A stretch of DNA of 64,000 bases, from assembly GCF_005780165.1 (NCBI RefSeq), contig NZ_VAUV01000020.1:1-64000 (forward strand), written 5' to 3'. Below the pieces are notes generated by a model, which worked only from the letters and a program-made list of their open reading frames with translations, ran no database searches and was not told the DNA's origin. Shown here piece by piece: positions 1-51,503 of this stretch. This DNA comes from Phragmitibacter flavus. Its GTDB lineage: Bacteria > Verrucomicrobiota > Verrucomicrobiia > Verrucomicrobiales > Verrucomicrobiaceae. Numbering within the stretch: the stretch's first letter is position 1; the number at the start of each line of letters is the position of its first letter. The position numbers were made by a program, and so were the translations under genes.

Positions 1-80
1 ACTGGCCTGCCGGTGTTGATGAGTTCAACGGCCTGTGCTTTAAATTCGGCGGTGTATCGTTTGCGTGGCTTCGATGTCAT
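1..80 (-). CDS. IS3-family transposase OrfA, N-terminal fragment (runs off left edge)
   Basis: The minus strand from 80 reads M-T-S-K-P-R-K-R-Y-T-A-E-F-K-A-Q-A-V-E-L-I and continues off the window. The basic start followed by RYTAEFKAQAVEL is the usual N-terminus of IS3-type OrfA (Transposase_8, helix-turn-helix), which binds the element's ends; the catalytic OrfB would lie to the left. Only about 26 codons are visible, so intactness cannot be judged. Upstream, at 92-111, is an inverted repeat TCTGGA/TCCAGA containing TGGACC on the minus strand, which could be part of the IS end. The element would mark the left limit of the accessory region 1-4800. Confidence 0.7.
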   Translation of the reverse strand, partial: MTSKPRKRYTAEFKAQAVELINTGRP

Positions 81-91
81 TTGGATGGTAT

Positions 92-111
92 TCTGGAGTG
101 GATGGTCCAGA
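92..111. repeat. Short inverted repeat, possible IS3-type element end
   Basis: TCTGGA (92-97) and TCCAGA (106-111) form an inverted repeat just upstream of the transposase start, with TGGACC reading outward on the minus strand. Such sequences occur at IS3-family ends, but the other end lies outside the window, so this is only a suggestion. Confidence 0.3.
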
Positions 112-143
112 AATCTAGCTCACCTCAAAAGAGGTATAAAAAT

Positions 144-243
144 TGAAGATAATGTTGCAATGCGCGGACTGACCCCTGTCAATGCGCGGACTGACCCCTG
201 TCACTTTGAAGCTAATGTTGCAATGCGCGGACTGACCCCTGTC
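144..243. repeat. GGGGTCA-type 22-bp repeats, three copies
   Basis: A 22-bp unit (AATGCGCGGACTGACCCCTG plus TC) occurs at 159-180, 181-202 and 222-243. The first and third copies sit in a longer 37-bp direct repeat (144-180 and 207-243) with one mismatch. The reverse complement reads AGGGGTCAGTCCGCGCATT, the style of short repeat often found near REP-associated and other transposases. No such transposase is visible here. The last copy overlaps the stop codon of the neighbouring HNH-like gene. Confidence 0.75.
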
Positions 244-766
244 ATGGATTTTTTCCGTGCCAGCTTAGTGATGCACGCTCAATAAATCCAAAGATTTCAT
301 TGGTGTCATCCTGTTTTTCTATACCTATGTTTAGGCCGGCTCTCATGACAGTGGATGTGCTAACATTCAGCGGCGTTCTGTAATGACTGCGGTGGAGAGC
401 ACACGCTATCTTATGCATTGTTCGCTCAATTCTCTCCCAATTGAGACGAACAGTCCAAAAGTCCCTTCCTTGGTAACTAACTTGCTCCATGCAAGAGCGA
501 ACACTGGCTTTCAGCGATGGACTCAGATCAAAGGATCTAAATGTCGTTGCTAAGACTTCCTGTTTTCCAGCATCTTGAGCACCGGCAAATCCGATAAAAA
601 TATTTCGCACATACTCGTCGTCTTTTGACGTTTTTTCATTATGGAATGAGCACGAGGGAACCGTGATCAGTTGGCTGCGTTGTTTTTTCGGGAAAAAGCA
701 CTTCGCCGGAGCATGCTCCACTGAGGTTGCTTTGTTTTTGCACATGTAACAAGTTTGTGTGCTCAT
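242..766 (-). CDS. HNH-endonuclease-like zinc-finger protein
   Basis: This 174-residue protein starts with a CYMC zinc knuckle (residues 6-9), then VEHAPAKCFFPKK and VPSCSFHNEKTSKDDEY. The CxxC, EH and CxxHNxxKxxDDE pattern is that of small HNH (His-Me finger) nucleases, where the histidines bind metal and the scissile phosphate. The rest of the protein is not recognised. It ends inside the GGGGTCA repeats and lies 46 bp downstream of the DUF4145 gene on the same strand, so the two may be cotranscribed. Base composition is more AT-rich than the main body of the window, which suggests horizontal origin. The HNH assignment is by motif only; activity and role (restriction, homing or other) are unknown. 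Confidence 0.6.
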   Translation of the reverse strand: MSTQTCYMCKNKATSVEHAPAKCFFPKKQRSQLITVPSCSFHNEKTSKDDEYVRNIFIGFAGAQDAGKQEVLATTFRSFDLSPSLKASVRSCMEQVSYQGRDFWTVRLNWERIERTMHKIACALHRSHYRTPLNVSTSTVMRAGLNIGIEKQDDTNEIFGFIERASLSWHGKNP

Positions 767-812
767 TCTTTAAAACCATAAGACAAAAATTGTAAAATGG
801 TCGTCTAGCTTG

Positions 813-1526
813 TCACCCTTTGATTGTTTTTCTTCTCTGAGGAACCTTATTCTTCAAAAACTGAGCTTTGCCTTCGTTTATATAGATAGTTTCGATTAAA
901 CCCTCCGCAATATCTAGAGAGCTGATTATGTCCAGTCGCGAAGGGGAAAAGTTCCGATGAATGGACGCGTGGCCTATTTCAAGAGTATCTTCAATAATCT
1001 TCTTTTGACGTGGCGAGATACCTCCTGCAATCTGAAGATTATAAAGTTGTTTTTGGAACGAGCCATTGTCACCGACCTGATCAATCATAATGCTTTCTAA
1101 GAGCGCCCGGACCCCCATGGCTGCCAGGGCATAGCATTTGCTATGGAGCGCAGAATAAATTTCTGGAATTAGTCGGGTTACGAATTCGGGCAGCCAGATG
1201 ATTGCAAGCTTCTGACCATCTACAAGTGTCATTGCGTGCGTCCATGTGGGCATTCTTCGGAAGGTGGCTGGGGGATAGTAATTGATGGAGGGAACTTCTC
1301 GCCCATCTTCATCTGTCACTTCTGATTGTAAGCACGTATGCCGGAATGTGATAGATTCACACCCGGCACACTGCAACAATTCATAAAAGTCTTCACCGTG
1401 GATTCGAGCCGGTGGGTCTTCAGAAAGAATCTCGTTCCGGGCAGTCTTATGGTAGTGAATAAGGAAGTGGTTTCGATCTCCTGAACACTGGTTGCAGTGC
1501 GCTTTGACAATGTCGCCTTGATTCAT
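813..1526 (-). CDS. DUF4145 domain protein
   Basis: The 237-residue protein has a CNQCSGDRNH zinc knuckle near residue 11 and a second Cys pair (CAGC) near residue 53. A helical C-terminal part follows, with the DUF4145 signature ALAAMGVRALLESIMID, then SPRQKKIIEDTLEIGHASIH, in which G-H-A-x-x-H is the typical core. DUF4145 occurs alone, attached to HsdR-type restriction subunits, and in mobile accessory regions; its biochemical role is not settled. ATG at 1526 is the obvious start. The gene lies 29 bp downstream of the P-loop gene on the same strand and upstream of the HNH-like gene, consistent with a three-gene accessory operon. Confidence 0.7.
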   Translation of the reverse strand: MNQGDIVKAHCNQCSGDRNHFLIHYHKTARNEILSEDPPARIHGEDFYELLQCAGCESITFRHTCLQSEVTDEDGREVPSINYYPPATFRRMPTWTHAMTLVDGQKLAIIWLPEFVTRLIPEIYSALHSKCYALAAMGVRALLESIMIDQVGDNGSFQKQLYNLQIAGGISPRQKKIIEDTLEIGHASIHRNFSPSRLDIISSLDIAEGLIETIYINEGKAQFLKNKVPQRRKTIKG

Positions 1527-1555
1527 GAGGAATGCTAATTGGAAGAATTTGCTTG

Positions 1556-2239
1556 CTAGATGATCAGGCTGATGTCGTTGTTTATTTCCCTGAAAGGGCG
1601 TTTTTTGCCTTCTGTTGTGAATACTGACACGGTGTTCGCTGCAACCTCGCCAGAAGCCAGAAACGCAAAAAAATCGTCAATATTTGAAGACCAGTGTGAA
1701 ATGTTGAGGTTGCGTCCGGTATCACGCTCTCTAGTCAAAAAGGAATAGAGGCATTGCCCCGGTGATCCTTCGAAATAGATGATTCTAAACATTCCACGGG
1801 CTGCTGCAATGTGCTTCTGTCTTAAGATGGGAAAGCCAGGAAAAGACAAAACAATTCCCGACTTTTTGGCGGTTTTTGCGCGTTGATCGAGTTCAGTAAG
1901 AAGTGGTATCGGATCACAGCTCAGAAAAAACCTATCCCACTGAGGTTTCAGCCCGTGATGAATCATACCATCTACTGGTGGCCACAAATCAGCCTCAATA
2001 AAAACAAGCCTCTCGTGTTCAGCTAGCTGCTCGCTGAGGTAGGACTTGCCTGCCCCTGAAGGGCCAAGGGAAAATGTGTGCATGGTTTTGTGGCTCAGGA
2101 GGTTGTTTAAGAAATGGCTTTGGCTACTTATCACAGTTTCACGGCCTAATCCTTCGAAAAAATATCTTTTAAGGGATTCCGAAGCTTGATGTATAGATTG
2201 GGGGGTATTATAATGTTTGAGTTGATACAATGCTCCCAT
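1556..2239 (-). CDS. P-loop kinase-like protein
   Basis: The 227-residue protein has a clear Walker A motif, GPSGAGKS, at about residues 58-65. A hydrophobic strand with acidic end follows (RLVFIEADLW), then IVLSFPGFPIL and an Arg-rich lid-like stretch LTRERDTGR. This arrangement is that of small nucleoside, gluconate or shikimate-kinase-like P-loop proteins (AAA_33-type), but no specific substrate can be named. The first 50 residues may be a separate helical region; a second start exists at the Met just before HTFSLGPSG. It leads a same-strand run of three genes with the DUF4145 and HNH-like genes. No homologue was recognised with certainty. Confidence 0.55.
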   Translation of the reverse strand: MGALYQLKHYNTPQSIHQASESLKRYFFEGLGRETVISSQSHFLNNLLSHKTMHTFSLGPSGAGKSYLSEQLAEHERLVFIEADLWPPVDGMIHHGLKPQWDRFFLSCDPIPLLTELDQRAKTAKKSGIVLSFPGFPILRQKHIAAARGMFRIIYFEGSPGQCLYSFLTRERDTGRNLNISHWSSNIDDFFAFLASGEVAANTVSVFTTEGKKRPFREINNDISLII

Positions 2240-2399
2240 CCAAGCGTTGTTGTGTCAGAAGCGTAACCCGTTGATAATCAACGCACCATTTTGAGATTTG
2301 AGGCTTCTCGTAGGGGTCGCCATCTTTACCTAGGCAGTAGCGAGGCAAATCGGTCATAAAGTGAGGCATTAGGTCACTCTGTGGAAATACACCCCGCAC
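2208..2399 (-). CDS. Small hypothetical ORF overlapping the P-loop gene start
   Basis: A 63-codon reading frame ends 32 bp inside the P-loop gene in another frame. The composition (PHFMTDLPRYCLGKDGDP) looks protein-like and not simple repeat, so it may be a small gene or the remains of a longer one cut by the repeat-rich DNA upstream. No family was recognised. Treat it as uncertain. Confidence 0.25.
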   Translation of the reverse strand: MRGVFPQSDLMPHFMTDLPRYCLGKDGDPYEKPQISKWCVDYQRVTLLTQQRLDGSIVSTQTL

Positions 2400-2576
2400 G
2401 CGAAAGCAAGATTTTGGCGGTTAGTGCGCTACCGCAACACGTTGTTGCCGCATTTTGGTTTGAATCGATCCTGTCCTGACGCCAAGGCTAACCTCATCCA
2501 ACCGCGTGATGCCCATTCTTCATTGTCCGCTGCATTCTTGTTGTGGGTGCTCACCCTGTCAAGGTTTTGCACACTG

Positions 2577-2674
2577 ACCCCATTGCTTTGCTGACCCCTG
2601 ACCCCATTGCTTTGCTGACCCCTGACCCCATTGCTTTGACCCCATTTCTTCCTCACTGACCCCATTTCTTCCCG
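2577..2674. repeat. Tandem TGACCCC repeat array
   Basis: Two perfect 24-bp units (ACCCCATTGCTTTGCTGACC plus CCTG) at 2577-2600 and 2601-2624 are followed by a shortened third copy (2625-2638) and two ACCCCATTTCTTCC variants to 2674. On the minus strand the core reads GGGGTCAG, as in the array at 144-243, so the two arrays probably share an origin. The array makes an apparent repetitive ORF on the minus strand (2429-2665) that is not believed to be a gene. The rest of 2400-2681 shows nothing recognisable. Confidence 0.75.
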
Positions 2675-2681
2675 TTCAATT

Positions 2682-3524
2682 TTACCTCCAGTCGGCGGGA
2701 GGTGACTTCGTCCATTTCTCGGGATATTTGAATATTCGATGTTCCGTGTATGGCAAGTTAACTATTCGGGATGTGATTCCCATACCAAACCCAACAAAAC
2801 CTATTTTGATTGCCTTGGCGGGCTCAAAGAATGCCGCCCATTCAATGCCACCTATCATGCAAATAATACACCAACCGAGAGTGTTTTCTTCGCAGTCAAC
2901 TCCAATATCTTCACGCGGGTCGTGCTTCGGATCCGATTTAGGAGTGGTAAAGCGCCAAGCGGTGGTCATTATTTTTTCAGTCGGTCGCCCCAATAGCGTC
3001 CTTCTTAGTCGCTTTACTAAATATATTGGGAGCTTTCTGCTTCCCCAAGGAACGCTCGTGCAATAATGAACCCTAATGGCAACATATGCCACAAACAGTT
3101 CAATAAGGTCGAACCTCAACCTCCAATATCTATCTCCAAAAAGATATGTTGTCCCATACTTGCGGAGCATTTTCCTATCCCTATTGACAATCGATTTAGC
3201 GTAGTTTTCTACTATCGAGGCTTTCTGCTCGCATGAAGAGCACAACAGATAGTGTTTATTGCTATCTTGGAGTTGTATTTTTAGGCCATTGTTCAGTTGT
3301 GAAATATTCACTACTCCGCCCCATGCAGTTTTATGCCAATCGAATGCCCAACTTGGAATGATGTGGCTAAGACGAAGCGAAGAGCGCGTTCCGCACACGA
3401 TACATCTTCTGAGGATTCCCCCGGCTGTCCTTTGATCACTCCCATCAATACTTTTTATCTTTTGTCCCGAATCAGTATCGAAGACCTTCCATCTTCCTCT
3501 CCGAGGGTAGTTGCGCTTTTTCAT
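2682..3524 (-). CDS. HNH-like zinc-finger protein, larger type
   Basis: This 280-residue protein has CIVCGTRSSLRLSHIIPSWA at about residues 41-60 and LLCSSCEQKAS at about 93-103. The CxxC, SHIIP and CxxCE series is a common HNH or zinc-ribbon nuclease arrangement, with the SH histidine as the candidate catalytic or metal ligand. The remaining 170 residues contain hydrophobic segments (LFVAYVAIRVHY; MIGGIEWAAFF) and no family I recognise. It is the second HNH-like gene within 3 kb, and both are minus-strand and AT-rich compared with the core genome. It could be a defence nuclease or a degenerate mobile-element nuclease. Confidence 0.5.
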   Translation of the reverse strand: MKKRNYPRRGRWKVFDTDSGQKIKSIDGSDQRTAGGILRRCIVCGTRSSLRLSHIIPSWAFDWHKTAWGGVVNISQLNNGLKIQLQDSNKHYLLCSSCEQKASIVENYAKSIVNRDRKMLRKYGTTYLFGDRYWRLRFDLIELFVAYVAIRVHYCTSVPWGSRKLPIYLVKRLRRTLLGRPTEKIMTTAWRFTTPKSDPKHDPREDIGVDCEENTLGWCIICMIGGIEWAAFFEPAKAIKIGFVGFGMGITSRIVNLPYTEHRIFKYPEKWTKSPPADWR

Positions 3525-3686
3525 TCATTAATCGTAGAAGCGTTTACCGTTGCACGAATAGAGGCAATATTTGCAGCTTCTGATCACGTGCTACTTTTGG
3601 GCTTCTGCATTCATTGTTGAACTCGGCGAACACCACATTCCCCTCATTGAGTAGAGGGCAATTTCACTCAGTGTTGGCGCTTTGAA

Positions 3687-3890
3687 TTACCTGCTGCCGT
3701 AAATCTCCTTAACCTTTTCAACAGCTGCCTCCTCGGCAATTTTGATGACCTTATCGGCGAATTTTCCTAATTCCCGTTCAAGTTGTATACCCCTTTGCGT
3801 TTGCTTGGCGGGATCGGATGAAGGCGGTGACTGTAGAGCATTCACAAGTGAAATTAGTTCGTGGCTGATTTCGTGGCTACGGTAGGACAT
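3687..3890 (-). CDS. Small hypothetical protein (67 aa), likely helical
   Basis: Starting at ATG 3890, the protein is predicted to be almost entirely helical, with an amphipathic second half (GKFADKVIKIAEEAAVEKVK). No domain was recognised. The normal amino-acid composition supports a real gene, but it stands alone between AT-rich spacers (3525-3686 and 3891-4017) in which nothing else is visible. Confidence 0.4.
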   Translation of the reverse strand: MSYRSHEISHELISLVNALQSPPSSDPAKQTQRGIQLERELGKFADKVIKIAEEAAVEKVKEIYGSR

Positions 3891-4017
3891 GGTGTTTAAG
3901 ATGTTATGTTGTTAGCGGTTACTAAACACACCTGCGGTATCGAGTAAAGTCTGGCAATAGTGTATTTCAAAACAAAAAACCCTTTGCACAATGCGGACAA
4001 AGTGCTTTTAGCTTTCC

Positions 4018-4251
4018 ATGTCCTACGAACTGCTTTGGAACCATGCTCGGGAGATGCTGAAAACGGCAGAACAGCCAGTTCTCACGCGCAAGAAGATTGC
4101 GGAAATCCTTGGCGTCGAATCGATTGAGAAAGAAGATCTCATCGAGGCGTTTAGAGCTGAAGATCCTGAGGGGTTCATGTTCGACTTGCGCTGGATAGAC
4201 CTTCCACTCTGGGAAGTGGTGTTCTACAAAAGCCTGAGCCAAGTGTCATAA
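4018..4251 (+). CDS. Small hypothetical protein (77 aa)
   Basis: The ATG at 4018 opens a 77-residue frame with a plausible globular sequence (RKKIAEILGVESIEKEDL looks like a small helix-turn-helix-like helical unit) ending in a hydrophobic strand region, LPLWEVVFY. The antiparallel frame at 3967-4242 is the alternative; the plus-strand frame has the more protein-like composition. Its function is unknown. A 7-bp stem-loop follows at 4303-4320. Confidence 0.45.
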   Translation: MSYELLWNHAREMLKTAEQPVLTRKKIAEILGVESIEKEDLIEAFRAEDPEGFMFDLRWIDLPLWEVVFYKSLSQVS

Positions 4252-4817
4252 CCCATCTCCTCGGAAAATGTCGGATTTTTGCTATCAGCTCGCGACGTAA
4301 TTTCGTGAACGTTTTCACGATAAACGATCGTCCAGAAATGCCTTAGGAATCAATTTGAGGATTGTTTTGTGTTTTTCCGCCAGAAGCGACCTGTCAAACT
4401 CAACGCGGGGATGAATGGGGTCAGGGGGCAGTATGCAAAAAATTGACCGATTGCATCTTTTATATTGAATAGGACTATGACGGATAGTGAATTTGACCCA
4501 GAGTCGGTGGCGGTTTTGAAGTAGGACCGCAGGGGAAGGTATTGACGACATTCTGCCAACGCATGGCGTTGTTTAAGCAGTTCAACAGGTCTAGATTGAG
4601 AGGTGCAATAGGTCTGGATTGAGCGGTGCCGAATTTGCGCGTGTGGCCGGTATAAACTATTGGACTTTCTCCTCCTTGAGCCAAGAGCAGAAGCGGTCAG
4701 GGCATAAGTCGTCTTTAAGATATCCTCCTGACGAGACTAAAACATTAAACAGGGCACATTTTCGCATCCTGCTTTTTGATGATGTGTTATCTCAGTTCCC
4801 AGATGTTTGGCATCCGC
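4252..4817. other. Gene-poor spacer with IS debris
   Basis: No intact gene is visible in these 566 bases. They contain a stem-loop TCGTGAA/TTCACGA (4303-4320), an isolated GGGGTCAGG motif near 4418, a 22-bp imperfect direct repeat around 4587-4627 (AGGTCTAGATTGAG and AGGTCTGGATTGAG), and a transposase-like remnant (separate entry). The G-rich, high-GC texture of the rest of the window begins abruptly at about 4830, inside the RND gene. Confidence 0.6.
4598..4720 (+). pseudogene. Remnant of an IS66-type accessory/transposase HTH protein
   Basis: The plus-strand frame reads SGLSGAEFARVAGINYWTF followed by SSLSQEQKRSG. This is the style of helix-turn-helix region in IS66-associated TnpA-like proteins (GxSxxEFxxxxGINYxTFxxW). 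The frame lacks a proper start and decays into unrelated sequence, so it is read as a leftover of an insertion sequence. The family assignment is by memory of the motif only. Confidence 0.35.
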
Positions 4818-47335: not shown

Positions 47336-47489
47336 TTGGGCGGTGAGCGAAGAGAAAAGATGAACGAATCGTTCGGAAGTCTGGTGGAAATTGAGGGATT
47401 TGGCCTTCCCAATTCAATAAGTTACGATTCCGTCACATAAGGGCTCCGTGCTTGCCCGATGGTCAATCGCCCCGGAAGATCGCGGCCCA

Positions 47490-48041
47490 ATGTCCGAGCC
47501 CACTGTTTCTGATCCATCCGAATTCCCTCCTAATGCCAATCAAGATTCGATGACCGGGAACGCGATCTATCTGCTGCGCACGGTTCATCAGCATCACGTG
47601 GCCCTCAGTGCGCTTGCCGATCAGAAGGCCAGCTTTCTTCTTGGTGGAACCATCGTGATCCTCGGTTTCGTCGCGACGGCGAATCAGCAAGCCTCCATCG
47701 GCCTGCCATTTCTTGTTTTGGCAGCGGGATCGGTTCTTGCATTGGTGTTCTGCTGTCTGACTTTGATCCCGCGGATCCGTTTTCATGACCCGAAACAACC
47801 CGGATTTAACCTGCTATTTTGCAGTCACTTCATCAACTTGAGCGAGGATGAGTTCATTCGCCGGATGAAGGCGACCATTGATCGCGACGCGTCAATTTCT
47901 GAAGCCTTGTCACGAGACATTTATCAGATGGGCGGCATCATTGTCCGTCGCAAATTGAAGACCCTGAGGTTTGCCTACGGGGCCTTTCTGGCAGGGATTA
48001 TCGCCTGCGTCGTTGGCTGTGTGTTGCAGGCGATTTTTTGA
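47490..48041 (+). CDS. Two-helix membrane protein, Pycsar-effector (PycTM/DUF5706)-like
   Basis: From ATG 47490 (a GTG at 47448 is the alternative) the 183-residue protein has YLLRTVHQHHVALSALADQK, then two membrane helices (FLLGGTIVILGFVATAN; FLVLAAGSVLALVFCCLTLI). A cytoplasmic segment with FINLSEDEFIRRMKATIDRD follows, then a C-terminal helix. The order helix with A-D-x-K, two membrane spans, then F..L..EEF and a final ALSRDIYQMGGIIVRRKLK is that of the Pycsar effector membrane domain, which disrupts the membrane in response to cyclic nucleotides in phage defence. No pyrimidine cyclase gene is in the window. It ends 20 bp before the duplicated tRNA-Thr end of the island. Confidence 0.65.
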   Translation: MSEPTVSDPSEFPPNANQDSMTGNAIYLLRTVHQHHVALSALADQKASFLLGGTIVILGFVATANQQASIGLPFLVLAAGSVLALVFCCLTLIPRIRFHDPKQPGFNLLFCSHFINLSEDEFIRRMKATIDRDASISEALSRDIYQMGGIIVRRKLKTLRFAYGAFLAGIIACVVGCVLQAIF

Positions 48042-48060
48042 GAAGCGTTTTCCTGGCAGG

Positions 48061-48101
48061 AATGGAGCCGGTTGTCGGACTCGAATCGAGACCTGCTGAT
48101 T
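48061..48101. repeat. Duplicated 3' end of tRNA-Thr (attL-like site)
   Basis: The first 25 bases (AATGGAGCCGGTTGTCGGAC plus TCGAA) are identical to 51426-51450, the 3' end of the tRNA-Thr gene with encoded CCA. The following 16 bases match 51451-51467 with one substitution and one missing base. A tRNA 3'-end copy at a distance of 3.4 kb is the usual footprint of site-specific integration. Confidence 0.85.
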
Positions 48102-48191
48102 GAAAACCTCCCACCGAATCACACGGAAGCGCCGCCGCTTTTAAGGCGTCAACAGAAAGCACTCGCCGTGCAACAAGAGCGTTTGGCAGCA

Positions 48192-48673
48192 ATGCCGACC
48201 ACTGAGGAGGTTGCCGCCTTCCGTGCAAAGGTGGAAGCCTTGCTTGGCGGGTCGAAGGCATTCACCGCGCTTGCTGGCCAACGGATCAAGATCGGCGTGG
48301 AGATCGGTCGACAGGTCAATCAGTGGATGCCGCGCATTCCCTACGCCAAGCGGGGCGACTGGTTCGCCGAGAATCTGCCTAGCATCAATCGTTGCATCCA
48401 CGGCTTCAACGCCTGGCTGCCAAAGTGGAGGGCGGAAATTTCGATTTAAGGCAGGCCAGCAACCTCCATCAAGCGTTCATCCTATCTGGTGCATTGCCAG
48501 CGAACACGCAGCGCGGGAAGTCCATCCGTGACGCATGGATGCGCCCCGTCACATGGGCACGCCGGGTGAAGCTGAAGATCCTTCAAGAGAACATCGAAGC
48601 CTACACCCCCGCGCAGAAGGTGGAGTTAAAGGAGGCGGTGGGGCCGCTGGTGGAGTTGTATGGGCGGTTGTAG
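48192..48673 (+). pseudogene. Frame-broken gene at island start (DUF3102-like region)
   Basis: The frame from 48072 (first codons inside the tRNA copy; first internal ATG at 48192) gives TEEVAAFRAKVEALLGGSKA and IGRQVNQWMPRIPYAKRG, then WFAENLPSINRCIHGFNAWL, and stops at 48449. A second frame overlapping from about 48422 continues as VEGGNFDLRQASNLHQAFIL to 48673. Together they look like one gene of about 160-200 residues split by a frameshift at about 48425-48445. The first part resembles DUF3102-like regulators of mobile elements, without certainty. Its 5' end may have been replaced by the att site. Confidence 0.45.
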
Positions 48674-48713
48674 AGGGGTGATTACGAGAATCCGAGAGTG
48701 AGGATTGTTTCGA

Positions 48714-49316
48714 CTATGAGGAGCCGATTAATTTTTCTTTAATCAGACGTATCTCTATCACAGTTGTAGACACCGCAAAGTGGCCCGCAAGGGCATCCAC
48801 GGCCTCTACAAGGATGCCCTCCTCAATGGGTTTGGATGAGTCCACGTAAAGCGCCAATCGGGAACTCAACTCATTGCGTGGGACCAACAATGCACCAGCA
48901 AATTCATTCGCATGATATTCCAGGAAACTATATTCTCGTTCCGGAATCTCGGAATAGAATTCCCTCAACTTTTTCTCATCTTTCGGGAACTGTTCAGCCA
49001 ACTCGCGATGTAATACATAGTGTCCGATTTCATGAGCCACACTGTATCGCATTCGCCCATGAAATCGACCCTGCATATATTGATCCCGATCGACGGCAAG
49101 CGTGTTGAAATCTATCCCCAGTAAGGCATCAACTCCAAGGTCATTTAGGAGATTATCTACAACGCGCATTTCCAAACCTAAACCAAACTCAGCTATGGCC
49201 AGGACGTCGATTGGGTAATCACCACTGGGCCAAAATTCTTCTCGGAATTCATCAGCGCGAGACCAGCAAACTTTGGCAGGATAATAAGGGGCTCGAAAAA
49301 GTGGAGGATCAGGCAT
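48714..49316 (-). CDS. ImmA/IrrE-family metallopeptidase
   Basis: The 200-residue protein contains YSVAHEIGHYVLHRE (HExxH with the second His further on) and FLEYHANEFAGALLVP, where the Glu of the H-x-N-E-F segment completes the zinc site. This is the ImmA/IrrE (M78) type, which cleaves an XRE-type repressor after DNA damage or another signal. The XRE gene lies 8 bp upstream on the same strand, the usual partner. In ICE-type elements such a pair controls excision. It may also act as a toxin-antitoxin-like module. Confidence 0.9.
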   Translation of the reverse strand: MPDPPLFRAPYYPAKVCWSRADEFREEFWPSGDYPIDVLAIAEFGLGLEMRVVDNLLNDLGVDALLGIDFNTLAVDRDQYMQGRFHGRMRYSVAHEIGHYVLHRELAEQFPKDEKKLREFYSEIPEREYSFLEYHANEFAGALLVPRNELSSRLALYVDSSKPIEEGILVEAVDALAGHFAVSTTVIEIRLIKEKLIGSS

Positions 49317-49324
49317 ATAAACAA

Positions 49325-49705
49325 TTAGCTATTCTGAATTTTCTCAATGATGGCCTGCATCTCCTCATCTGTTGGCTTTTTACCCCTAAGAGTTCTGAAA
49401 AAAGCTGGTAAAAATTTCACAATGGAATCTTCATTCATAAGATCGCTAGGGATCTTTCCTCGATCCGCCGCCGCGTGATCAAAAAAACGAAGCCAAGCGT
49501 CATCGCCTTCAATTAAACCCAGAGCGGTCGCGTATCGCTCTAAAATCGCTCTATCGTGAGGAGGCGGCAAAAGGCCTCGCTCGATTCTACTAATATTTCC
49601 CGGGTCAGCTTGTGCGGCGATGCTGAAGCTACGCAGTGATATTTTCTTGAGCATCCTCAGAGATTTAAGGTAGCCCCCGAATGTAGTGATGGTCGTTTGA
49701 TTCAT
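49325..49705 (-). CDS. XRE-family helix-turn-helix regulator, partner of ImmA-type protease
   Basis: The ATG at 49705 is chosen over one eight codons upstream because TTFGGYLKSLRMLKKISLR begins the domain. The helix-turn-helix is SLRSFSIAAQADPGNISRIE followed by RGLLPP, as in cI/Xre proteins. The last 60 residues are acidic and probably the protease-sensitive or dimerisation part. It is first in a two-gene unit with the ImmA-type gene, so it should repress this unit and perhaps the lost integration genes. The region upstream (49706-49978) is AT-rich and gene-poor. Confidence 0.88.
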   Translation of the reverse strand: MNQTTITTFGGYLKSLRMLKKISLRSFSIAAQADPGNISRIERGLLPPPHDRAILERYATALGLIEGDDAWLRFFDHAAADRGKIPSDLMNEDSIVKFLPAFFRTLRGKKPTDEEMQAIIEKIQNS

Positions 49706-49808
49706 TGGGAATAAGGGTATGGGGATCACATATTAACTACGAATGTTGTATAAAATCAACAACAAGATTCAATCATGCACCTAATAAATGGTTCAAAAGA
49801 ACACATTT

Positions 49809-49913
49809 ATGGAAATATGTGAGGCTTTCGAGGCAGGCGATCAAGCCCTCCAGTATATCAAACTAGCTGCTGAAATGTGGAACGAGTGGAACCCCCTGAA
49901 CGTCACTGGCTAA
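49809..49913 (+). CDS. Possible 34-codon ORF
   Basis: ATG at 49809 opens EICEAFEAGDQALQYIKLAA, and the frame ends at TAA 49911-49913. It reads like natural protein but is too short to assign and could be a remnant of a larger island gene. Confidence 0.2.
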   Translation: MEICEAFEAGDQALQYIKLAAEMWNEWNPLNVTG

Positions 49914-49978
49914 CCTCTCGCCACCTCACTAACACGGCGTTGGAAACCAGGAAGAGGGCGATGTGATCCGCACCCCTT

Positions 49979-50374
49979 TCAAAGTCGGGTGAGCTGAAGG
50001 AACTGGTTGGCCGTGTTGCACCGCCGCTCTGACGTTTCATCGTCGCTCCCAGCGTTCACGAACAGCCACAAGCCACACTCATCGAACCACTGCACCGCCT
50101 CGGCGCAGTCGAGGGGCTGCCACTTTCCACCGATCCAAATCTGATAGTCCAGATCGATCTCGGCCTCGTCGACCACCACGCCGCGCCCTCGCTCGTCTTG
50201 AATGGCGAACCTACCAGAAGCGCACCCCAGCACGGTGACCGCCACCCCATCTTCCCAGGTTGCATCAAGCTCGCATTCATCCAATCGGTGGAACCTGCCA
50301 ACCATTCCCGGCATCGGTCGCAGCTTATGCACGCCGGGAACTGAACTGAAATCAATCGCGTTCATATTGTTCAT
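49979..50374 (-). CDS. Hypothetical protein (131 aa) of the island
   Basis: The acidic protein from ATG 50374 (a second Met follows after two Asn residues) contains DATWEDGVAVTVLGCASGRF and YQIWIGGKWQPLDCAEAVQ, a beta-rich pattern with no recognised family. Its start is embedded in an inverted repeat (TGTTCAT/ATGAACA), which suggests local regulation. No functional clue is available from neighbours. Confidence 0.45.
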   Translation of the reverse strand: MNNMNAIDFSSVPGVHKLRPMPGMVGRFHRLDECELDATWEDGVAVTVLGCASGRFAIQDERGRGVVVDEAEIDLDYQIWIGGKWQPLDCAEAVQWFDECGLWLFVNAGSDDETSERRCNTANQFLQLTRL

Positions 50375-50392
50375 TAGAACACTTTATGAACA
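50369..50392. promoter_or_regulatory. Inverted repeat over the start of the 131-aa gene
   Basis: TGTTCAT (50369-50375) and ATGAACA (50386-50392) form a 7-bp perfect inverted repeat spaced by 10 bp, spanning the start codon. It looks like an operator, perhaps for the island's XRE protein, but this is inference. Confidence 0.4.
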
Positions 50393-50456
50393 GCGGTTCA
50401 AGTTTTGGTTTCCGCTCGCGATTTTTTGGGGAGAGATGCAGCGCTGGGCAAGTCAG

Positions 50457-51152
50457 CTATGGGGTTCTGTTCTTTTTTTGGCCCTCGTAATTCAACACCT
50501 CGAAGCTTTTGACTGTGCTTTTTGACCCAAGAACGGTTGTGTAGGAGAAAGTTCCATCTGGTGTAGCCTGCACGCGGAACATTGCATCATCGAACAACCC
50601 TACTGGCAGATTGCCAAATAAATACATGGGTGGACCTGAGGGAGCCAAGCCGCCCGAACCGACGCCTCCTCCACCGCCTACTGCCGCCATGCTGCTGGCG
50701 ACGGGACGACCCGGGCCCATTTGTTCTGCAATCACCCCCTTTTTATCGACCGAAATCACTCTCACGAGCATCGTCACTGACTTAGCCAATTTTGCCTGAT
50801 GGTCTTTGTTTGCCTGAATGCGGTCATTTTCCGCTTGCCTGATTCGCTTGACCTCCTCCTCCTCTTTCATCGCAGCGGCCGCCATTTCTTTTCGATGTTT
50901 CGCCGCCGCTTCAGAATCAAACGCAAACCTCTGTTGAATTTCAGTCGGGAGTTTTTCGAACGGCACTTTCACAGTTCCGGAATCATGAACAAATCGAAGG
51001 CCGTCAGGATCAACTTTTGTGAGGGTTGCGTTCGTGTAGACGGTCTCTCCCCCGAAGTCTTTTTTGACGCGTAACTCGTCCAATTTCAATTCAGCGACTT
51101 GAGCAAATGCCGAAGTGGACAAAATGAAGACGAGAGAAAGAGCGACTTTCAT
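50457..51152 (-). CDS. Exported SHD1-like protein of unknown function
   Basis: The ATG at 51152 gives a signal peptide VALSLVFILSTSAFAQ; longer starts up to 51299 read through non-coding-looking sequence. Next comes ELKLDELRVKKDFGGETVYT, then VDPDGLRFVHDSGTVKVPFE and KLPTEIQQRFAFD, an SHD1-like beta domain common in Verrucomicrobiota exported proteins. A basic/acidic helix and a Gly-rich linker follow. Function is unknown. Although it lies inside the tRNA-bounded segment, the family is chromosomal in style. Nothing is seen in 51153-51427. Confidence 0.6.
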   Translation of the reverse strand: MKVALSLVFILSTSAFAQVAELKLDELRVKKDFGGETVYTNATLTKVDPDGLRFVHDSGTVKVPFEKLPTEIQQRFAFDSEAAAKHRKEMAAAAMKEEEEVKRIRQAENDRIQANKDHQAKLAKSVTMLVRVISVDKKGVIAEQMGPGRPVASSMAAVGGGGGVGSGGLAPSGPPMYLFGNLPVGLFDDAMFRVQATPDGTFSYTTVLGSKSTVKSFEVLNYEGQKKNRTP

Positions 51153-51427
51153 AAGGGCAAATATTAGATTCTTTGAGGCAAAGCAGCAATTATTTTCAAT
51201 CTTCAAGCCGTGCAAATTAAATGGAGGTGATGAGCCGATGGCTATGGCGACAGCATACCCTGATCGGGGAGAGGTGGTCACCGCTGGCGATGGCGGCAAC
51301 TGACAACTGTTGTCTCGAATATGGCTGAGTCAGAAATGGGACAAGCCATCAAAAGGGAGAATTTCAAAAGTGTCCAAGTCTGATTTTTACATGAACACCG
51401 TGAACATCCATAATCGTTGATTCTGAA

Positions 51428-51503
51428 TGGAGCCGGTTGTCGGACTCGAACCGACGACCTGCTGATTACAAATCAGCTGCTCTACCAACTGAGCTAAACC
51501 GGC
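51428..51503 (-). tRNA. tRNA-Thr (anticodon TGT), CCA encoded
   Basis: The minus strand folds as a 76-nt tRNA: acceptor GCCGGTT/AACCGGC, D-arm GCTCAGTTGGTAGAGC, anticodon stem GCTGA/TCAGC around loop TTTGTAA with anticodon TGT, T-arm GTCGG/CCGAC with GTTCGAGTC, discriminator T and encoded CCA. The 3' end is duplicated at 48061-48101, marking it as an integration target. Confidence 0.95.

Follow-up and report, generated by a model that had tools for sequence, protein, structure and literature searches.

A probable remnant of an integrative element between two tRNA-Thr(TGT) 3' ends in Phragmitibacter flavus

The tRNA-Thr(TGT) locus and its genes

The window, by which we mean the whole 64,000-nucleotide stretch of Phragmitibacter flavus DNA that was analyzed (contig NZ_VAUV01000020.1, positions 1 to 64,000), has a single tRNA gene according to ARAGORN, a tRNA-Thr(TGT). 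A second copy of its 3' end lies 3.4 kb away, downstream of the gene and in the same orientation, which is the arrangement that integration at a tRNA leaves behind. The features of the segment between the two ends, and of its immediate surroundings, are listed below; genomes are designated by G numbers, with G000 for the window's own genome.

47448..48041, plus strand: membrane protein, PycTM-like, in a low-skew stretch immediately beyond the repeat (Pfam PF18967, E 5.9e-19; PADLOC PycTM)
48060..48101, minus strand: displaced tRNA 3' end, putative distal att core, with one substitution and one missing base
48072..48449, plus strand: ORF, first half of an orphan gene, probably frame-broken, in the slot that is the integrase position in relatives
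48392..48673, plus strand: ORF, second half of the orphan gene, probably frame-broken
48714..49316, minus strand: ImmA/IrrE-type M78 metalloprotease, HExxH motif intact (HEIGH) (Pfam PF06114, E 1.4e-10; CapP-like, E 1.9e-16)
49325..49729, minus strand: HTH regulator of the XRE type, paired with the ImmA gene (Pfam HTH_31, E 9e-6)
49979..50374, minus strand: orphan protein of 131 aa, with no homologue in 388 phylum genomes and viral contigs
50457..51152, minus strand: secreted-looking protein of 231 aa, beside the tRNA, with family matches in 37/57 genomes
51318..51427: tRNA-proximal flank, similar to the element-side att arm in relatives' tRNA-Thr islands (shuffle tests against G012, G020, G023 and G015d1)
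51364..51377, minus strand: TTGGACACTTTTGA, a 14-bp word, candidate integrase arm site, in common with the G012 island, where its place is comparable
51428..51503, minus strand: tRNA-Thr(TGT), intact, the presumed regenerated target gene (ARAGORN)

In alignment, positions 48060-48101 match 51425-51467 over 43 columns with 95% identity. The exact part comprises 26 bases (48060-48085), after which come a C-to-T change and then one missing base. The repeat includes the encoded CCA and three bases past it, and the displaced end breaks off 2 nt into the anticodon loop; the repeat, its orientation, and its breakpoint are direct observations. The 23-base core, TGGAGCCGGTTGTCGGACTCGAA, has 2 occurrences in the window with up to three mismatches allowed, where 0 are expected. 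An earlier note on this DNA had proposed a repeated tRNA-Thr(TGT) 3' end including the CCA, and the alignment bears it out. The same note had named many unlinked copies of the tRNA fragment as a finding that would speak against an island; a search of the whole genome with a 201-base query around the copy matched two places only. Six further direct repeats of 24-41 bp, all exact, are present in the window, and repeat length alone is therefore not decisive. The decisive points are that the repeated region is a tRNA 3' end, that it has the correct orientation and side, and that it stops at the anticodon loop.

The XRE and M78 open reading frames are intact, adjacent, and 8 bp apart, and their designation as an XRE/ImmA control pair, first made from the letters of the sequence, is confirmed by Pfam matches (M78 at E 1e-10; HTH_31 at E 9e-6, which falls slightly below Pfam's curated cut-off). 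The two are neighboring genes in four family genomes too, and no tRNA was found around these pairs in the short loci examined. The pair by itself is therefore no marker of a mobile element. Two overlapping plus-strand reading frames do exist where the earlier note saw a frame-broken gene; that the gene is broken is a matter of interpretation, since no homologue for comparison was found in the order or phylum samples or in viral contigs, nor, for the first half, in plasmids. The family of the 231-aa protein, as judged from its sequence matches, is common in these bacteria and appears lineage-typical.

The GC skew between the repeats is -0.04, against 0.36 +/- 0.10 (mean and standard deviation) for other stretches of the same size. 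The lower G skew previously noticed between the copies is real, but the low-skew DNA is not bounded by them: it starts near 47.34 kb, some 0.7 kb beyond the repeat, at the PycTM-like gene, and the opening ~4 kb of the window are equally unskewed. This 0.7-kb overrun, together with the one lineage-typical cargo gene, is a counterpoint to reading the segment as an island. The PycTM-like gene is possibly an older neighboring insert. The genome encodes two PycTM-like (Pycsar effector) proteins, one at window 47448-48041 and the other at G000:C1:243035-243499, and no nucleotide cyclase was recognized among the neighbor proteins that were scanned.

Islands at the same tRNA in related genomes

The comparison genomes belong to the same family and order, and none is of the window's genus. 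Five family members (G012, G015 with two, G020, G023, and G033) have displaced 3' ends of the same tRNA-Thr, which lie 31-91 kb from the intact gene and share its contig and strand; G004 and G029 have tRNA-Thr fragments with no linked intact gene. Side-by-side alignment shows that the relatives' displaced ends span the CCA through the anticodon loop and end there or a few bases past it, so that the stop of the window's copy inside the anticodon loop is what would be expected for the crossover site of the relatives. In G012, G020, G023, G033, and the outer G015 island, a tyrosine recombinase begins on the inner side of the displaced end, at a distance of 12 to about 160 bp. These integrases form one clade, with 37-95% mutual identity, while the integrase at the corresponding place in G029 differs. 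The site is thus a recurrent one in the family, and the integrase clade that uses it has relatives, detected with the G020 protein, in 27 of the 57 genomes searched (the window's own genome plus family and order relatives).

Within genus g8, the flank outside the G020 displaced end shares 83-85% identity with a G007 flank, and in G020 this shared flank extends to about 70 bp from the displaced end. G007 (locus L082) lacks a displaced end, and its tRNA-Thr is separated from the shared flank by 3.7 kb that hold two ordinary genes. The comparison supports the view that occupation of the tRNA may vary in the family, though G007 offers no perfectly empty site. An element-like trailer adjoins the tRNA-Thr of G007, and the locus is possibly an even more decayed relic.

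Several of these loci have peculiarities of their own. G015:C3:92688-183764 (L047-L049) has three tRNA-Thr ends in series, a tandem accretion of two islands on one tRNA. In the outer island the integrase lies at the displaced end; next to the tRNA, the inner island may carry an ORF that resembles an integrase. The regenerated tRNA-Thr lacks an encoded CCA in L053 (G033), L051 (G020), and L054 (G023), the displaced original end keeping it. In L053 the T-arm of the regenerated tRNA-Thr also differs from that of the displaced end, which implies that the island brought a different 3' half. The GNAT flank gene was not near tRNA-Thr in six distant genomes, and no convincing synteny of the window's other proteins was found around the relatives' tRNA-Thr.

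The resemblance to relatives extends into the DNA beside the intact tRNA. We compared the 110-base tRNA-proximal flank of the window with the element arms of G012, G020, G023, and G015d1, and each comparison gave p <= 0.002 (500 shuffles; the flank test comprised 26 comparisons); against the element-side flank of G033 it did not reach this level (p 0.09). The same flank also gave p <= 0.002 against the tRNA flanks of G005 and G045. Against outer flanks the signal was weak for G012 (p 0.006) and G020 (p 0.012), and the flank did not stand out against those of G033, G023, and G015. Because of the resemblance to G005, to G045, and to the outer G012 and G020 flanks, a shared tRNA trailer may explain part of the arm similarity, which is itself directly observed. 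The flank outside the window's displaced end matched no element arm at the p <= 0.002 level.

A candidate arm site can be singled out within the tRNA-proximal flank. The word TTGGACACTTTTGA occurs, among ten genomes, once in the window's own and once in G012, with 0 occurrences for a reversed-pattern control, and its distance from the tRNA end is 51 bases in the window and 63 bases in G012. Since its choice followed inspection of both flanks, the shuffle test measures the resemblance more fairly. Two copies of TTGGACAC lie 11 bases apart in G012; integrase arm sites often occur as such close repeats. Inside the displaced end, the window has no similarity to the relatives' int-side arms, and G012 likewise has none to those of g8, so this comparison has little power outside g8. 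As to att status, both cores are present, the tRNA-side arm is similar to those of relatives, and the int-side arm is not recognizable.

Search for an integrase

No integrase and no transfer protein is encoded by the ORFs between the repeats, and a comparison of this segment with PHROGs returned the M78 protein as the sole match, with no phage structural genes. Neither tblastn with 16 tyrosine recombinases nor a profile of the tRNA-Thr clade found a convincing integrase remnant in positions 48000-51500, and the earlier statement that no integrase remains in the 3.4 kb therefore holds. A single match to the integrase of G029, on the strand opposite the frame-broken gene (28.9 bits, E 7e-4), is probably due to chance, since the alignment is gapped and weak and the best shuffled score over the 16 queries was higher, at 30.4 bits; for the G029 query alone the best shuffled score was 25.8 bits, below its 28.9-bit match.

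The earlier note had also considered mobilization by an integrase encoded elsewhere, and had suggested a search of the genome for tyrosine recombinases with the same att core. Query searches of the window's own genome found eight PF00589 proteins, which are of types outside the tRNA-Thr integrase clade; relatives of the G020 protein are absent from it. In the regions examined, one of its integrases lies beside tRNA-Val, one beside tRNA-Arg, and none at tRNA-Thr. As the genome lacks the clade and the att arm at the displaced end is not recognizable, mobilization of this kind is unsupported.

Integrases were also met at the 5' side of tRNA genes. At G010:C10:11415-53760 (L059, L060), the tRNA-Thr 5' half is duplicated 42 kb upstream, and two integrases lie beside the tRNA 5' end. 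In the window's own genome, a pair homologous to these (62% and 83% identical) lies 5' of tRNA-Arg(TCT), at G000:C5:313000-320600 (L101), where no repeat was detected in the 38 kb examined.

Origin of the segment

We consider it highly probable, at roughly 0.88, that the 3.4 kb are the remnant of a tRNA-Thr(TGT) integrative element whose integrase has since been lost by deletion. The footprint of tyrosine-recombinase integration that the earlier note described is supported by relatives' displaced ends cut at the same place, by the integrase just inside them, and by the matching element arm. The element would have entered through a crossover within the tRNA-Thr(TGT) anticodon loop, catalyzed by a tyrosine recombinase, its own copy replacing the 3' half of the tRNA and the original 3' end being pushed to the far side, now 3.4 kb off. 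It was presumably a member of the island group that uses the same tRNA in the family, with an integrase gene close to the displaced end, on its inner side. The integrase, the adjoining att arm, and most of the cargo were probably deleted, which would have left the tRNA-side arm, the XRE/ImmA pair, and a few genes of unknown function; the displaced end, freed from selection, may then have begun to mutate. We infer that such a deletion took place, in which direction events ran, and that the segment is immobile today. The mutated displaced end and the probable loss of the adjoining att arm make excision improbable, and we regard the locus as probably a deletion-decayed, CIME-like island that is no longer able to excise.

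An additional event at the same hotspot is a tentative proposal, possible but doubtful: an outer insert with the PycTM gene, at about 47.34-48.06 kb, adjacent to an inner one between the tRNA ends. The onset of low skew near 47.34 kb and the precedent of G015, whose three tRNA ends show tandem occupation, argue for it, against which there is no further tRNA end near 47.3 kb, and skew alone is no proof of foreign origin. A second insert supplements the main explanation and does not replace it.

It is unlikely that the island is non-autonomous, with an integrase of its own never present or not needed, and that a G012/G020-type integrase moves it in trans whenever such an element is there. The presence of both att cores, a tRNA-side arm like that of the G012 element, the absence of a recognizable integrase remnant, and the frequency of the clade's integrase (27/57 genomes) are all consistent with it. 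It is opposed by the lack of such an integrase in the window's own genome, by the inner side of the displaced end, which is unlike the relatives' int-side arms, and by the displaced core, which is mutated and shortened; the genome, moreover, has no further displaced end of this kind, only two places matching. More speculative still, and quite improbable, is the idea that the 3.4 kb form a compact passenger that lacks an integrase but is still mobile in trans, via the arm and core of the tRNA-Thr clade, with XRE/ImmA as its own control module. It is very unlikely indeed that an unrelated duplication or rearrangement copied the tRNA end next to ordinary chromosomal DNA, as one lineage-typical gene and the window's other 24-41-bp repeats might suggest, because the side, orientation, complete CCA end, and anticodon-loop breakpoint all match the relatives' integrase-bearing islands, an element-like arm adjoins the tRNA, and the skew looks foreign.

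Among terms in the literature, cis-mobilizable element (CIME) appears to come closest to the decayed island described here. CIMEs are decayed ICEs or IMEs that keep attL and attR and have lost the genes for integration and transfer (PMC5704250). The window's segment likewise has an att core at either end of a tRNA-bound stretch without integrase or transfer genes, at a site with tandem occupation in relatives. Its int-side att arm, unlike that of a CIME, is not recognizable; descent from an ICE or IME and cis-mobilization are only putative here, and the example in the literature, elements related to ICESt1, comes from the very different host Streptococcus thermophilus (PMC5704250). The locus also resembles the tDNA islands of the Islander survey, with a tRNA and a cognate 3' fragment on one replicon, downstream, in the same orientation, and >2 kb apart, and with a crossover of the anticodon-loop class (PMC4383910), an attachment site class that accounts for 2083/3919 islands there (PMC4383910). 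The Islander filter would nevertheless reject the segment, which has no integrase gene (PMC4383910). Support beyond the Islander criteria comes from the use of the site by relatives' integrase-bearing islands.

The control pair resembles ImmR/ImmA of ICEBs1 in that an XRE regulator adjoins an M78 protease in one likely operon. Unlike the ICEBs1 pair, it has no integrase, xis, or conjugation genes to control, and homologous pairs in relatives lie away from any detected tRNA. A likeness to CapH/CapP of CBASS is seen in the match of the M78 protein to the CapP model (E 1.9e-16), but the CapH match is weak (E 0.028), and the 3.4 kb contain no CBASS cyclase or effector. The island is a well-documented yet ordinary fossil. 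It illustrates that a tRNA-bound island can be recognized from very little, a displaced tRNA end and one att arm, where integrase-based island finders would overlook such relics.

Elsewhere in the window, positions 1-4400 have near-zero GC skew, several unknown genes on the minus strand, and a 31-bp direct repeat at 150-180. This region is possibly another insert.
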